Assembly (NCBI GenBank): GCA_017471985.1
Contig: JAFURE010000019.1
Coordinates: forward strand, 1-64,000
Length of the DNA: 64,000 bases
Direction: 5' to 3'
Source of the DNA: Akkermansia sp.
GTDB lineage: Bacteria > Verrucomicrobiota > Verrucomicrobiia > Verrucomicrobiales > Akkermansiaceae
Below are positions 26,952-36,448 of this stretch, in pieces (the stretch's first letter is position 1; every line of letters starts with the position of its first letter). The notes beneath the pieces were generated by a model. That model was not told where the DNA came from. It searched no databases and was given only the letters and a program-made list of their open reading frames with translations. Made by a program: the position numbers and the translations under genes.

Positions 26952-27944
26952 ATGTATGGGACTGAAGTCCCATGCTCCGAAACAGATGTTATGCAGGCAT
27001 ATTTTCACAAATCGCTGAGGAACAAGAATATCAACTATAGACATGGTCGATATTTTGTGACGATGCAGGTGGCACACAACATGTCACTGTTGGGAGCAAT
27101 TGTGGGTGAAAGAAGTGTATTGAACGAACTGGGGAAAGGCGTGGAAGCAGCTCTCGTGGACCTACCGCAGAAATACCCGGAGCTTAAATTAGGTGAGTAC
27201 GTGATTATGCCTAACCATGTTCACATGATACTAACCATTCAACTTCAGGCCACGAATAAGGAAAATCACTTGGGTTTTCTGGTTGGCCGCTTCAAGGGGA
27301 CTACTGCCTATATTTATGGCAAATTGAAGCAAGCAGGTACTGTACCAGCCATCGGCGAACACCTTTGGCAGCGGGATTATTGGGACGATTTGATTTCAAG
27401 TGAAGAGGAGTTTCGAAACTTTGAAAAATATATACGCCTCAACCCGAGAAATTGGACTCGAGATCGCTGGGGCGCAGTTACAACATACATGCTGGGTGAT
27501 GAGAGGCTGCTGGACTTACCGAAGTGTGCCTTTGTCGCCTCGCAGGGATTTTCGGCGGCAACATTAAATCCACGCCGCATCAAACTTTCGGAGCGAGGGA
27601 CTTCAGTCCCTCATTCCCCGGAGATGGCCGTCATTTCCACCTTCACCAGTGCACAGGAGCGCGAAGTGCTTCGCATAGTTTTAGCCAGAGGTCGAAACAT
27701 TATCCACGTTTGCCCACAGGGGATTCCCCGGAGGGAGGCGCTTTCCGCCACGCAGATACAAGCGCTGGAGGAAAAACGATTGTTGTTCATTTCACCGCAA
27801 GAGACCGGTTCCCGCCTGAATAAAAAAGTAGCAACTAGGTGCAATGAATATGTGCTGCGACATGCAGAGGAAATATGGGCGGGTGATATCACCGCCAACG
27901 GCACTCTGGCGTCGCTGATTGACGGGTTAACACAGGCACCATAA
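26952..27944 (+). CDS. REP-associated tyrosine transposase (RAYT, Y1/HUH family)
   Basis: About 330 residues. The Y1 transposase core has the HUH motif in MPNHVHMIL (about residues 92-100) and the tyrosine helix in FRNFEKYIRLNPRNW (about 156-170), which fits RAYT proteins that mobilise REP palindromes. A C-terminal domain (from about 230) reads VLARGRNIIHVCPQGIP...LLFISP, resembling a DprA-like or Rossmann segment. Two REP palindromes of opposite orientation lie inside the reading frame. Start is uncertain: ATG 26952 puts the first REP in the protein, ATG 26991 (MQAYFHK) would leave it in the leader. A weak TTGCTT...TATTTT precedes 26952. Confidence 0.85.
   Translation: MYGTEVPCSETDVMQAYFHKSLRNKNINYRHGRYFVTMQVAHNMSLLGAIVGERSVLNELGKGVEAALVDLPQKYPELKLGEYVIMPNHVHMILTIQLQATNKENHLGFLVGRFKGTTAYIYGKLKQAGTVPAIGEHLWQRDYWDDLISSEEEFRNFEKYIRLNPRNWTRDRWGAVTTYMLGDERLLDLPKCAFVASQGFSAATLNPRRIKLSERGTSVPHSPEMAVISTFTSAQEREVLRIVLARGRNIIHVCPQGIPRREALSATQIQALEEKRLLFISPQETGSRLNKKVATRCNEYVLRHAEEIWAGDITANGTLASLIDGLTQAP
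26956..26979 (-). repeat. REP palindrome, left copy (inverted)
   Basis: Palindrome ATGGGACT GA AGTCCCAT followed by GCTCCG. On the minus strand it reads CGGAGC then the hairpin, the usual REP order of a GGAG tetranucleotide 5' of the hairpin. It lies at the very start of the RAYT frame. Confidence 0.75.
27589..27612 (+). repeat. REP palindrome, right copy
   Basis: CGGAGC followed by GAGGGACT TC AGTCCCTC. Same core as the left copy in opposite orientation, hairpins pointing outward. It lies inside the RAYT gene at the boundary between its transposase and C-terminal domains and is translated in frame. Confidence 0.75.
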
Positions 27945-28010: not shown

Positions 28011-28634
28011 TCAGTGCTTACCGCACTTGCACTCGTGGCCTTCACCGTGGCCACCGCAGCATTCGCCGTCACCATGACCGTGACCACCGCATTTGCACTC
28101 ATGGCCTTCACCATGGCCACCGCAGCATTCACCGTCGCCGTGACCGCACTTGCACTCGTGCTCACCCTCACCGTGGTTCTTGCAGTCACTCTCGCAATCA
28201 TCGCAGTTGCCGCTGCAACCGCCGCCACAGGAGCAGCTTACCTGCTGGTTCATGGAGTCGGCCACCTCCTCATCGGTGGGAGCGCAGCCCTTCTCGATGG
28301 CGATGCAGAGGTACTGGTGCACGATATTGAGCATTTCGTCGAGCTCCTGGCGAGCCTCAAGGAATCCCTTGCAGATGGGGTTGTCAATCACGTCCTGCCG
28401 CAGACCGTCGAAAGTCGAAATTTCCTCCTCAGAAGGGGGCATGCCCTCCATGTGCTTGTTGCGGAGCTTCTCGCCATACTCGTTGACCTTGCGGAAAAGA
28501 TCAGTGGCTTCGGGGTTCTGGTAGAAAAGGCCGATGCGAGCGCGAGCGGAAACGACCTTCTGGCTCTGAGCAACGGCATTGGCCAGCTCGGTGGTGAGCT
28601 TCACCAGTTCGGGAGAAAGGGATGTATTTGACAT
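28011..28634 (-). CDS. YlbF/YmcA-family protein with Cys/His-rich metal-binding tail
   Basis: 207 residues. Residues 1-125 are a helical Com_YlbF domain (LTTELANAVAQSQKVVSARA, then NPEATDLFRKVNEYGEKLR). YlbF proteins in Bacillus partner with YmcA and YaaT to steer RNase Y, and some carry a 4Fe-4S cluster. From about 133 the protein turns into a Cys/His/Gly tail: CSCGGGCSGNCDDCESDC, then near-repeats of GDGECCGGHGEGHECKCG. The DNA repeats with periods of 66 and 57 nt. Such a tail should bind several metal ions. A strong promoter and terminator frame it as a single-gene unit. Confidence 0.8.
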   Translation of the reverse strand: MSNTSLSPELVKLTTELANAVAQSQKVVSARARIGLFYQNPEATDLFRKVNEYGEKLRNKHMEGMPPSEEEISTFDGLRQDVIDNPICKGFLEARQELDEMLNIVHQYLCIAIEKGCAPTDEEVADSMNQQVSCSCGGGCSGNCDDCESDCKNHGEGEHECKCGHGDGECCGGHGEGHECKCGGHGHGDGECCGGHGEGHECKCGKH

Positions 28635-28644
28635 AACGCGGCGC

Positions 28645-28673
28645 ATTTTAGCACAAATGTACCGCCTATGCAA
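28645..28673 (-). promoter_or_regulatory. Promoter of the YlbF-family gene
   Basis: TTGCAT (28668-28673), 17 nt, TAAAAT (28645-28650), 10 nt before the ATG. The predicted leader is about 3 nt. The -35 touches the start codon of the divergent ankyrin gene. Confidence 0.6.
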
Positions 28674-30931: not shown

Positions 30932-33900
30932 CTATTTTTCCAATTCAGCACGAATAAAGGGAGCTGTAATGCTCTTTTTGTGGCGCGCGACCTGTTTCAC
31001 AGTTCCCTCAGCCACAATGGTGCCGCCATCAGCACCGGCACCGGGACCCACGTCAATAACGTAGTCGGCCTCGCATATCAGCTCGAGGTTATGCTCAATG
31101 ACCACTACTGTGTTGCCCATATCGACCAGACGGCGCAGCACACCGACCAGCAGACGGACATCGTGCGGGTGCAGACCAATGGTGGGTTCCTCGATGAGAT
31201 AGAGGTCCTGCGGCAGAGCCCGCCCGCGGCGAATGGCCGTAAGGGCAGCCCGACGCCCCTTAATGAGCTCCGCAACCAGCTTAATGCGCTGCGCCTCGCC
31301 GCCGGAGAGCGTGTTACTGGCCTGCCCCAGCGTGAGGTAGCCCAGGCCGGTTTCGCAGAGCAATCGCAGCGGGTCAGCCAATCGGGGTTGCCCGGCAAAG
31401 AACTCAGCGGCGTCCTCCATATTCATATCGAGCACCTCAGCAATGGTCTTGCCCTTGTAGCGCACCTGCAGAGTACGCGAGTTGTAGCGGGCGCCGCGGC
31501 AAGTCTCGCAGGGCACATTGCAGGGCGGCAGGAAATCCATCTCCTGTCGCTGATAGCCGGTACCCTTGCAGCTCTCGCAATGCCCGGCAGCCGTGTTGAA
31601 AGAGAATCGGCCGGCATCGAAGCCCAGTCGGCGGGCATCGGCACTCTGGGCAAAGAGCTTGCGGATTTCATCGAAAATACCGATATAGGTTGCGGGAGTG
31701 GAGCGCGGGGTCTTGCCCAACGGCGATTGGTCCACGCGGTACAGAGCCCTGACGGAATCGAGCCCGCGGGAGTTTTTCCAGGCAGCGCGTTCCTCCTTAC
31801 TGATGGAAGCGCCAAGAGCCTGCTGCACGGCGGGTGCCAGCGTACCGGTAATGAGCGAAGTCTTGCCCGCACCGGATGAACCGGTTACAACCGTGAATCG
31901 GGCGCGGGGGATACGCAGGTTCACATTCTTCAGGTTGTGCAGGCAGCACCCGGTGAGCTCCAGCCACTCGGCATCCTTCACCGGCAACCACTTACCGCAG
32001 TAGGGGTGACGACGGGACTCCGCCAGGGCTCGCCCCGTGACCGACTGAGGATTGGCTGCCACCTCATCGAATGTACCCTGTGCCACAATTTCGCCGCCAT
32101 GCACACCGGCCCCCGGGCCAAGGTCAATGATATGGTCGGCGCAGCGCATGGTATCTTCATCATGCTCAACCACCAGCAGCGTATTGCCTCGCTGCTTGAG
32201 GTCCGCCAGAGTGGAGAGCAGGCGCTCGTTATCACGGGGGTGAAGACCGATGGTCGGCTCGTCGAGCACATAGAGCACGCCTCGCAGCTCCGAACCCAGC
32301 TGAGCGGCCAGACGTATGCGCTGTGTCTCGCCGCCGGACAGCGTGGTAGCGGCTCGGTCCATGGACAGGTAACCCAAGCCCACACGCTGCAGGAAACGCA
32401 GTCGCGGAGCAATCTCTGCCAGCACATTGCGTGCAATGTCGGCTTCCCGCCCCTCGAAATGCCAGGTATTCACCAGCTCCAGTGCGCTGACGGCATCCAG
32501 CCTGCCCACCTCGGCGATATTCTTGCCGAAGAGCGTCACACCGAGAGCGAACTTATGCAGGCGCTGCCCGTGGCAGGCCGGACACAAGCGACCGGGGCCA
32601 TCCTTGGCTGCAGCTTTCTCGACCTCGCGGTCAAAGCGCAGTTCACGCTCCAGCTCGCTCATCTTTTCGTCATCCTTCCTGCTACCGCCCACATCAGCCA
32701 CACGCCCGTGACCGGCGCAGACCGGGCACCAACCGCGCGGCGAATTGAACGAGAAGGTGGAAGGCTCGGGCTCGGCATAACTCTCACCACACTGCGGGCA
32801 GGTCAGGCGCGTACCCAGCAACTGACTGTGCGCCCCCTGTACCAGACGCAGGAAGCCATCGCCCATTTCCAGAGCACGGCCCACGCCCTCCTGAAGCGCC
32901 GCAAAATCGCAATCCCTGCCATTCATCGTGATATGGTTACCCTGCACACAGACCTCAGCCAGCACGATATCAACATCGTGGTTGGAGTAGCGGTCGAGCG
33001 GCGTGAAATCCTCGGTACGGCAAAGAGAGCCATCGGCAATCATGTAGGGGTATTTCTTCTTGGCCGCCCAGCGGGCCAGGTCGGCGTAGTGCCCCTTGCG
33101 GTTGCGCACCACGGGAGCGGCAATCATGAGCGAGGCGGGGCGCTTATCAATTTCCGCCATCACAAGGGCCCGAATCTCATCGGGCAGTCGGCGCCCCACC
33201 GGCACCTTGCAACGGGAACAATGCGGCTGCCCCAGCTTGGAATAGAGAAGGCGCAGGAACTGCCATATTTCCGTTACCGTACCCACGGTTGACTTACAGC
33301 CACCGCGGGAGCGGTTCTGCTCAATGGCCACCGTGGGCGGCAGTCCGGTCAGGCGGTCGATGTCGGGAGTCTCCATCTGCTCAGTAAACTGGCGGGCATA
33401 GGGGCTCATGACATCCATGAAGCGCTTCTGCCCCTCAGCAAACACAATATCAAAGGCCAGCGTACTCTTACCACTGCCGGAAAGTCCGGTGACCACAGTC
33501 ATCTCATTGCGCGGAATGTCAACATCGATATTCTTGAGCTGGTGATGGCGGGCACCTCGCAGCGCAATGACGCCGTCCGGCACCGCCACATCGCCCTCAA
33601 TGGCCGAGGGCGCGGAGAGCAGTTCTGCCTGAGTGCCGAGAGCCTGCGCCAGATAACCGCTCGTGTAGCCGAGCCCGCAGGCAGCCACTTGCTCAGGAGT
33701 GCCCTGCACCACGATATGACCGCCCCCGGTACCGCCCTCGGGGCCGAGGTCAATCACATGGTCAGCGCACTTAATGAGCTCAAGGTTATGCTCGATGACA
33801 AGCAGAGTATTCCCCTGCTCCACCAAGCGGTCAAAGACGCGCAGCAACACCTCCAAATCACTGAAATGCAGGCCGGTACCGGGTTCATCAAGAATGAGCA

Positions 33901-36448
33901 GGCAGCCCTTCCCGGCGGCTTCCTCAGTAAGAGCCTCGACAAGAATGTGGGCCAGTTTCAAGCGCTGATTCTCACCGCCGGACAAGGTATTGAGCGGCTG
34001 CCCGAGCCCGAGATGCCCCAGACCAACATCCACCAGCACCTGCAGCCGCTCGGCAATGCGCCGGGCCCGGGCATTCTTTTCGCGGGCAAAGAGCCGCTGA
34101 GCACTGCGGATATCCAGAGCGAGCAGCTCGGCCATGTTGTAGCCCAGCAGAGTGATGGTGAGGGCCTGGTCAGTGTAGCGCGTGCCGTGACAGAGCGCAC
34201 AGGGCACAAAAATATCGGAGAGGAACTGCATTTCCACCTTCTCCTGCCCGAGCCCCGAGCAGCGGGGACAACGCCCATCGCCGCTGTTGAAGGAGAAATA
34301 GCCCGGTTTGAGTCCTCGGGCCTGAGCTGCGGGTTCTGCCACAAAAAGAGCGCGGATATCCTCGAACACACCGATATAGACAGCCGGTGTCGAACGGGGC
34401 GTGCGTACAATGGGGCTCTGGTCCACCAGCACCACGTCATGCACCTTGTCCAGCCCCTTAATGCTGCGCACCTTGATTTCATCTTCATCATCAAGGGCAT
34501 CCGCATGCACGGAACCGTAGAGCACCTGACAGGCCAGCGAGCTCTTGCCGCTGCCGCTCACACCGGTCAGACAGGTATATACGCCCAGCGGAATATCCAC
34601 ATCGAAGTTGTGCAGGTTGTGGCATTCAGCACCGCGAATGGCGATTTTACCCTTCCCCTTGCGGCGGCGGCGCGGCACGGCAATACAGCGAGCGGCACTC
34701 AGGTACTGCCCGGTGAGCGACTGCTTGGCCTTTTCAATTCCTGCAGGCGCACCGGCATACACCAGTTCACCTCCGGCAACACCACTGGCCGGCCCCATGT
34801 CCACAAGGTAATCGGCGGCACGCATCACTGCTTCCTCATGCTCAACCACGACAAGCGTATTCCCGCGGTGCGACAGGCGACGCATGGCAGAAATCAGACG
34901 GGCGGTATCACGAGAGTGCAGCCCGACGGTGGGTTCATCGAGCACAAAAAGTGTTTCGGTAAGTGCTGCGCCCAGACAGGCGGTCAAGCTCACTCGCTCA
35001 ATTTCACCGCCTGACAATGAACGCGTCAGTCGATTGGCCGCGATATAACCCAGCCCCACCTCACACAGATATGCCACGCGGCTGCGCAGCTCACGCACCC
35101 CCTGAGCCAGAGAGCGGTCGCTTCCGGTGGCAGGCAGCACATGAGCATCCAGCCAGGGCAGGAAATCCACCATGGGCAGTGCCATGACCTGCGGCACGGT
35201 CAGCCCGCCGATGGTGAAAGCCAGTGCCTCGGGGCGCAGACGTCCGCCGTGACAGTCGGGGCACACGCTGTACACGCGGTAGTAGGCCAGGAACACACGC
35301 ACCGTCATCTTGTGGGCATGCTTCTCCATATCATCGAAAATCCCCTTATAGCCGTACCACAGCTCATGGTCAGAGGCCGTCCAGGGGTCGAGCTCCCCGC
35401 AATTACCGTAGAAAACCCAGTCTTTTTCCTTCTGCGTAAGTTCATTCCACGGCACATTCATGCGCACGGCCCGGTGGCGTTTGTTGGCCCGCATGAAGTC
35501 ACCGTAGCAGATGGACAGAGTTTGCGAAGACAGCATCTTGAGTGCCCCGTCGGCTATGCTGACATCGGGCACAATACCACGGTTATAATCGTAAGTTATG
35601 GCGCGACCATAGCCCTTGCAGGCCGGACAGGCTCCCAGTGGCGAATTGCCACTGAACAGACCGGGACGCGGTTCCACCAGCGGGAACCAGTCACTGCGGA
35701 ACTCGCGCAGCGCTCCCCAGCCCGAATCCGTACGCAGAGCGGTGTACACCACATCCTGCCCCAGACGCAGGGCTGTTTCGACAGCCTCTGTCAGACGCGG
35801 GGTGGACTCTGCCCGCAGTTTCACACGGTCCTGCAACACCAGCCAGCGCTCCATACCCAGCTGAGCTTCGGTAGCGGAATCCAGCCGCAGCACCTCACCC
35901 TTACAGAACACACGCAGGTAACCCTGCCCCTGCAGAGCCTGCACCATTTCCTCAAACGTACCCACCGGGCGCACGGCAAAACACACCAGCACCTCACCGC
36001 CCTCACTCTCAGTCAATAACTGAGCCGCCACTCCCTGCGGGGTGGCCGGGCGAACCTCCCGCCCCTCGGCATCATGCCCCACAGCCAGGCGGGAAAAAAT
36101 GAGTTTCAGGTATTCATTGATACCCGTCATAGTGCCCACGGTGGAGCGCGAGTTCTTCACGGAATTGCGCTGCCCCAGAGCAATGGCCGGCGGCACGTTC
36201 TCCACGGCCTCCACATTCGGACGATCCATGCGGTCCATGAACTGACGCACATAAGGCGAAAAGGTCTCCACATAGCGTCGCTGCCCCTCAGCATACAGCG
36301 TGCTCATGGCCAGGGACGTCTTACCGCTGCCGCTCGGCCCGGTAACCACCGTAATGCCCCCCAGCGGAATATCCACATTGACATTCTTGAGGTTATGTTC
36401 CTTTGCCCCGCGTATGCGGATGCTGTTCACCGCACTCTCATTCTTCAT
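30932..36448 (-). CDS. uvrA: Double-length excinuclease UvrA (two fused copies)
   Basis: 1838 residues, about twice a normal UvrA (940). Residues 1 to about 950 and about 955 to 1838 each form a full UvrA. Four Walker A motifs occur: GPSGSGKTS (about 37), GVSGSGKSS (about 632), GLSGSGKST (about 986) and GSSGAGKTS (about 1522). Four ABC signatures start LSGGE, followed by IER, NQR, TQR and AQR. Each half keeps the zinc module in the second ATPase ([10 protein letters not shown] and [10 protein letters not shown]). The CxxC seen early in the second half ([10 protein letters not shown]) is absent at the matching place in the first half. UvrA binds DNA damage as a dimer in nucleotide excision repair; here one polypeptide could act as the dimer. 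Such fusions are known in Chlamydiae. Confidence 0.95.

Follow-up and report, generated by a model that had tools for sequence, protein, structure and literature searches.

A RAYT gene of Akkermansia with one of its own REP hairpins inside the reading frame

A RAYT gene and the hairpins at both ends of its catalytic core

The first 64,000 nucleotides (forward strand) of contig JAFURE010000019.1 from an assembly of Akkermansia sp., a gut member of the Verrucomicrobiota (GCA_017471985.1), the entire stretch analyzed and referred to below as the window, include a gene for a repetitive extragenic palindrome (REP)-associated tyrosine transposase (RAYT). Inverted cognate REPs accompany this gene, the left one in its leader and the right one inside its open reading frame (ORF). 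The features of the locus are as follows.

26991..27944, plus strand: RAYT (TnpA_REP) gene, 317 aa including the C-terminal domain, with the start set by homologs
27180..27437, plus strand: Y1/HUH catalytic core (Pfam Y1_Tnp, residues 77 to 162)
27522..27932, plus strand: C-terminal alpha/beta domain, probably DprA-like by Foldseek (residues ~191 to 327)
26956..26979, minus strand: left REP, foot CGGAGC plus hairpin ATGGGACTTCAGTCCCAT, reading leftwards, in the 5' leader of the RAYT gene
27589..27612, plus strand: right REP in the ORF, foot CGGAGC plus hairpin GAGGGACTTCAGTCCCTC, translated as S-E-R-G-T-S-V-P

The gene is a RAYT (class 2 Y1), having HUH and Y---NP tyrosine motifs in a Y1 fold. 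The window protein matched Pfam Y1_Tnp (E value, 3.2e-7) and NCBIfam REP_Tyr_transpos (E value, 1.4e-13, under the family cut-off), the latter also matched by 13 of 13 homologs, and in a Foldseek search with the full model its N-terminal part matched IS200 transposases and the RAYT-REP complex 4er8. These matches agree with the identification made in a preliminary description of the locus from its letters alone. The HUH motif, NHVH, occupies residues 88 to 91 and Tyr160 lies within YIRLNP; both HUH histidines and the tyrosine were invariant across an alignment of homologs, which were collected from genomes of the genus, public Akkermansia and Kiritimatiellae assemblies, and a phylum-wide draw (22 of 388 genomes with a homolog). 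The RAYT gene is present in one copy in the 2.54-Mb genome. An IS200/IS605 insertion sequence was rejected as an identity, as multiple near-identical copies would be expected of one.

Two copies of the core GGGACTTCAGTCCC stand inverted around the HUH/Y1 core, each with a GGAG foot and with the hairpins facing outward, exactly the arrangement first proposed. On the minus strand, the left hairpin spans 26956 to 26973 and its foot (GCTCCG as written) extends to 26979; on the plus strand, the foot CGGAGC begins at 27589 and the right hairpin spans 27595 to 27612. These are the only exact copies of GGGACTTCAGTCCC in the window, and allowing up to 2 mismatches gave 6 window matches versus 0.39 expected. 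Both REPs fold as single-stranded DNA hairpins in a DNA fold prediction, and an equally good linker hairpin arose in 15 of 1,000 synonymous-codon shuffles of the window gene. The left REP is found at the same position in five related loci (L030 to L034).

A mechanical ORF listing gives 26952 to 27944, or 330 aa, with an ATG at 26952. In four of these loci (L030 to L033), the left REP is likewise present but is not preceded by a start codon, and the protein begins at the Met equivalent to M14 (nucleotide 26991). The RAYT start is therefore placed at 26991, which leaves the left REP in the 5' leader and its would-be peptide, YGTEVP, probably untranslated, judging from homolog starts. The right REP is translated as RGTSVP and is coding in every intact homolog possessing one. 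Of the original proposal that both REPs are read in frame, the half concerning the right REP stands and the half concerning the left REP lacks support.

The proposed placement of the right REP, between the transposase domain and the C-terminal domain, was confirmed, and the REP is in frame there. An AlphaFold2 model (mean predicted local distance difference test score [pLDDT], 79) has a single internal low-confidence segment, residues 214 to 220 (pLDDT <50), which is the REP peptide. This REP is thus predicted to encode a disordered linker that joins the HUH/Y1 core to the C-terminal domain. That domain is probably DprA-like by its modeled fold: DprA structures followed the IS200 and RAYT ones in the Foldseek search with the full model (probability, 1.00; E value, ~1e-3), the domain alone matched DprA 3uqz (probability, 0.95; E value, 0.067), and one homolog had a weak Pfam DNA_processg_A match (E value, 0.025). 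Searches of Pfam and PHROGs with the domain returned weak matches only, and a PDB sequence search with its profile returned no match.

Genomic REPs and conservation of the linker site

The window palindromes are genuine REPs: they form hairpins, are multicopy, and lie mostly outside genes, with a foot of GGAG in the window and GTAG in genome G002. The genome of the window (G000) has 5 exact copies of GGGACTTCAGTCCC, two of them within the 1-kb RAYT gene, a pair flanking a non-coding segment of ~520 bp on contig C71, and one lying between genes on contig C85. Copies of GGGACTNNAGTCCC numbered 156 in G036, 72 in G011, 51 in G005, 37 in G002, 9 in G021, and 5 in G000, and 0 to 3 in most genus genomes without this RAYT; the genomes of loci L056 and L057 have 69 and ~290 REP copies, respectively. 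The original identification depended on further copies of the palindrome and on REPs in homologous genes, and both were found.

REP copy number tracks the presence of this RAYT. Of the genus genomes, 7 of the 11 that contain the gene in full or in part had at least 5 REP copies, as did 2 of the 26 that lack it (Fisher P = 0.0009, a value that ignores the phylogenetic relatedness of the genomes). Many genomic REPs of relatives are inverted pairs 31 to 35 bp apart, the closely spaced doublets known as REPINs; the window pair, ~640 bp apart around the gene, lacks that close spacing. REPs sampled in G005 and G002 were mostly intergenic, so that a REP in a RAYT gene is the exception.

Two side observations concern these populations. 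The pair on contig C71 (4640 to 5220; ~1650 to 2220 of L007) is the sole other inverted pair of the window REP in the genome, and the ~520 bp between its REPs is rich in other palindromes, such as GGAACCCGTGAAACGGGTGACAG, forming a mosaic of apparently different REP families. In G002 (e.g., L191 to L197), GTAG-foot REPs lie within a longer conserved element of ~75 bp, and the in-gene REPs there have a GGAG foot.

Homologs within the genus have the linker REP at the same aligned position, in the same orientation and codon phase; one, L052, has an insertion inside it. Beyond the genus, the Kiritimatiellae-group loci L058, L061, L157, and L158 have an inverted REP pair with different stems in the same linker, and L059 (the same gene as L156) has a degenerate pair there, also with different stems. 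Embedded REPs in homologous RAYTs, a check suggested at the outset, therefore recur in the same linker in Akkermansiaceae and Kiritimatiellae. In L061, L163, and L165, the linkers also contain tandem peptide repeats resembling amplified REP copies (for example, MACHAPAACHAPAACHA in L165).

Hairpin density was 5.7 per kb in the linker (17 genes), compared with 2.5 in the 5' region, 2.1 in the 150 nt 3' of the gene, and 0.15 to 0.48 in other coding parts, making linker hairpins at least 12-fold denser than those in the rest of the ORF. Among eight related sequences, the sample on which the test of synonymous-codon conservation was run, codon identity at identical residues averaged 0.49 over the gene and rose to 0.92 to 0.98 at both REPs, which form its two strongest peaks; of these, the left one would be expected of a REP in a leader. 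Linker stems were paired in 99% of cells and had 26 two-sided changes versus 7.4 in shuffles, a degree of pairing inflated by the fact that the stems were chosen as hairpins, and one-sided G-T changes (G-U intermediates) numbered 0. For example, GGG to GGA and GTC to GTT in L056/L057 are each synonymous and compensate each other.

Synonymous shuffles of individual genes gave modest P values, 0.002 to 0.06 for many genes, and no significance for L059, L060, L061, G244, and G158, so that it is the comparison of homologs that carries the argument. In a quick midpoint-rooted tree, built with no formal test, linker REPs spread through the Akkermansiaceae and Kiritimatiellae clade, with L060 nested beside a REP-bearing relative. 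On this sequence evidence, the in-ORF REP is conserved at one linker position across two bacterial classes and is not a local accident.

Why a REP persists in the linker

The explanation we favor, with moderate confidence, is a REPtron whose 3' REP lies inside the ORF and is constrained at the DNA level as a recognition site. In such a system, a domesticated HUH/Y1 transposase gene would have its own inverted REP hairpins at both ends of the catalytic part and would read through the right-hand one into the DprA-like C-terminal domain, placing the 3' REP in frame as a disordered linker. The RAYT protein would bind and nick single-stranded REP hairpins with the GGAG foot as a guide, as the TnpA_REP proteins of Escherichia coli and Stenotrophomonas do with their own REPs; the step from codon-level constraint to RAYT binding is one we infer by analogy with the biochemistry of other TnpA_REP proteins (PMC8266576). 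The linker REP would be kept as DNA, a 3' recognition site coupling the enzyme to its cognate REP, and could be tolerated there because the loop is disordered, while binding of single-stranded DNA may be a contribution of the DprA-like domain.

The main rival, possible but in our judgment doubtful, is that REP copies made by the RAYT insert into the RAYT's own gene and persist, without function, only in harmless in-frame loops, of which the linker would be the most permissive. The REP peptide is the sole internal segment with a pLDDT of <50, Kiritimatiellae linkers contain REP pairs and tandem copies (L061, L157, and L158), other palindromes lie in the HUH-Y loop or C-terminal region of the distant homologs L164, L165, L169, L170, and L172, and in-frame REP insertions, mostly between HuH and Y, are published for RAYT subclass 2.4 (PMC6006769). 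However, with this much divergence a dead insertion should lose its palindrome, and the synonymous sites of the REP are almost frozen in a gene that has drifted elsewhere, with codon phase, orientation, and position identical in all genus homologs. An unlikely variant of constraint on DNA is self-targeting, in which nicking of the linker REP on the single-stranded gene would couple or limit the enzyme's own expression, with DNA-level selection, itself constrained by coding, keeping the site in the two classes. Regulation of RAYT translation or stability by mRNA hairpins in the linker and 5' leader is less likely again: both REPs are within the predicted transcript and, in L030 to L033, the leader REP directly adjoins the start codon, but linker stem variation consists of Watson-Crick swaps without G-U intermediates, orientation and foot are kept, and an Rfam search gave no match. 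A need for RGTSVP as a linker, with the palindrome a relic, is the least plausible of these readings; GT.VP is conserved in the genus, but the Kiritimatiellae linkers are unrelated peptides in which REPs are still present, and codon identity is higher than the peptide requires. The suggestion that the REPs were domesticated as linkers is accordingly true of the protein and incomplete, in that the palindrome is conserved beyond the needs of the peptide.

The locus had also been likened to a REPIN with the transposase core as cargo, a REP-core-REP unit that moves by itself. Outward-facing REPs do bracket the core in the window and in most genus homologs, but the homology shared by differently located copies begins 5 nt beyond the outer side of the left hairpin and ends ~4 nt after the stop codon (L030 versus L032; G005 versus G011, G021, and G036, where the G005 RAYT is at a different upstream site). 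Since the shared homology reaches past the stop codon, the C-terminal domain belongs to the shared unit and travels too. L032 has a third REP immediately 3' of the stop codon, and in L027 one lies ~100 nt 3' of it. No core-only copy or excision was found, nor any REP-bounded C-terminal leftover among the C-terminal-only loci examined. This leaves independent movement of the core unsupported and very improbable. L070 was considered as a leftover of core excision and rejected as a decayed remnant without a REP boundary; L173 was likewise looked at.

Other observations on mobility come from the flanks. Similarity to the window ends just upstream of the neighboring NUDIX gene in the seven closest loci compared. 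A search of the genus for an empty site at this gene matched 36 of 37 genomes and found no clean empty site, and the adjoining gene differed in both loci with ORFs listed. In L030, L031, and L033, the upstream synteny is common to the species, a terminator hairpin upstream abuts the left REP, and sequences diverge almost exactly at the RAYT stop codon.

Several observations weigh against a retained recognition site, in addition to the sample of eight sequences and the selection of stems noted above. Under the hairpin criterion applied to the other homologs, L060, L162, and L177 have none in the linker, and their frame is open. The foot, GGAG or similar, departs from the canonical GT[AG]G, and L056 and L057 come from genomes rich in REPs in which the RAYT is frameshifted. 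The near-identical genomes G007, G023, and G035 keep the linker hairpin without a left REP or any other genomic copy, and all 3 REP copies found in the Kiritimatiellae genome of L058 lie in the RAYT gene; because of these cases, persistence of the linker REP needs no working REP population. As for the broken RAYT of L056/L057, both Akkermansia assemblies, it has three candidate explanations: an error in assembly, the presence of another RAYT, or a REPIN population that has outlived its transposase.

An in-ORF REP bears on how RAYTs and REP populations stay linked over the long term, although RAYTs rarely move. Synonymous recoding could remove the linker site without touching the protein, which makes for a natural test of a recognition site retained as DNA. 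Fusion of the RAYT to a probably DprA-like domain suggests that the protein takes part in handling single-stranded DNA.

Two other genes of the window drew attention. On the minus strand, 30932 to 36448 is an ORF of 1,838 aa resembling two UvrA proteins fused head to tail, as read from its translation, and 28011 to 28673 encodes a protein with a repetitive His/Cys-rich tail (GEGHECKCGGHGHGDGECCGGH) that probably binds metal.

Comparison with known systems

None of the openly readable papers searched describes a RAYT with a DprA-like domain or one whose REP occupies such a linker. The likeness to DprA (DNA processing protein A) itself is one of predicted fold, with a weak sequence match in one homolog (Pfam E value, 0.025).

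Like the REPIN/RAYT system of Pseudomonas (PMC3116915), the window RAYT is accompanied by genomic REPs that form closely spaced inverted pairs; the Pseudomonas REPs are extragenic, whereas one flanking REP of the window RAYT is inside the ORF. The HUH/Y1 fold is shared with E. coli TnpA_REP (4er8; PMC8266576), which recognizes foot and hairpin as single-stranded DNA (PMC8266576), as the window RAYT would. That system has a GTAG foot instead of GGAG, a bulged stem, REPs outside the gene, and no C-terminal DprA-like domain. REPs inside unrelated genes were listed in 2013 (PMC3733652), and these, together with Rickettsia palindromic elements, are palindromic repeats likewise translated in frame; the genes that contain them have no relation to the transposase of the repeat, unlike the window RAYT.

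Also among the closest systems is RAYT subclass 2.4 as defined by Quentin et al. in 2018 (PMC6006769), equivalent to group 4 of Bertels et al. 2017, for which in-frame REPs inside RAYT genes have already been published, though little studied. As in the window, a REP lies in frame within the transposase gene and REPs also flank the gene. The subclass motifs NH[IFV]H, WQ, and YIxNNP (or YIxNP) compare with NHVH, WQ, and YIRLNP (L for N) in the window and with YIRNNP in relatives. Subclass 2.4 proteins are ~194 aa with no distal C-terminal domain, compared with 317 aa and a probably DprA-like domain here, and their REP insertion falls between HuH and Y, whereas the window gene and its close homologs have the REP in the linker; palindromes between HUH and Y were seen only in the distant homologs L165, L170, and L172. 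The motifs therefore fit subclass 2.4, from which the window protein departs in its length, its C-terminal domain, and the site of the REP insertion.
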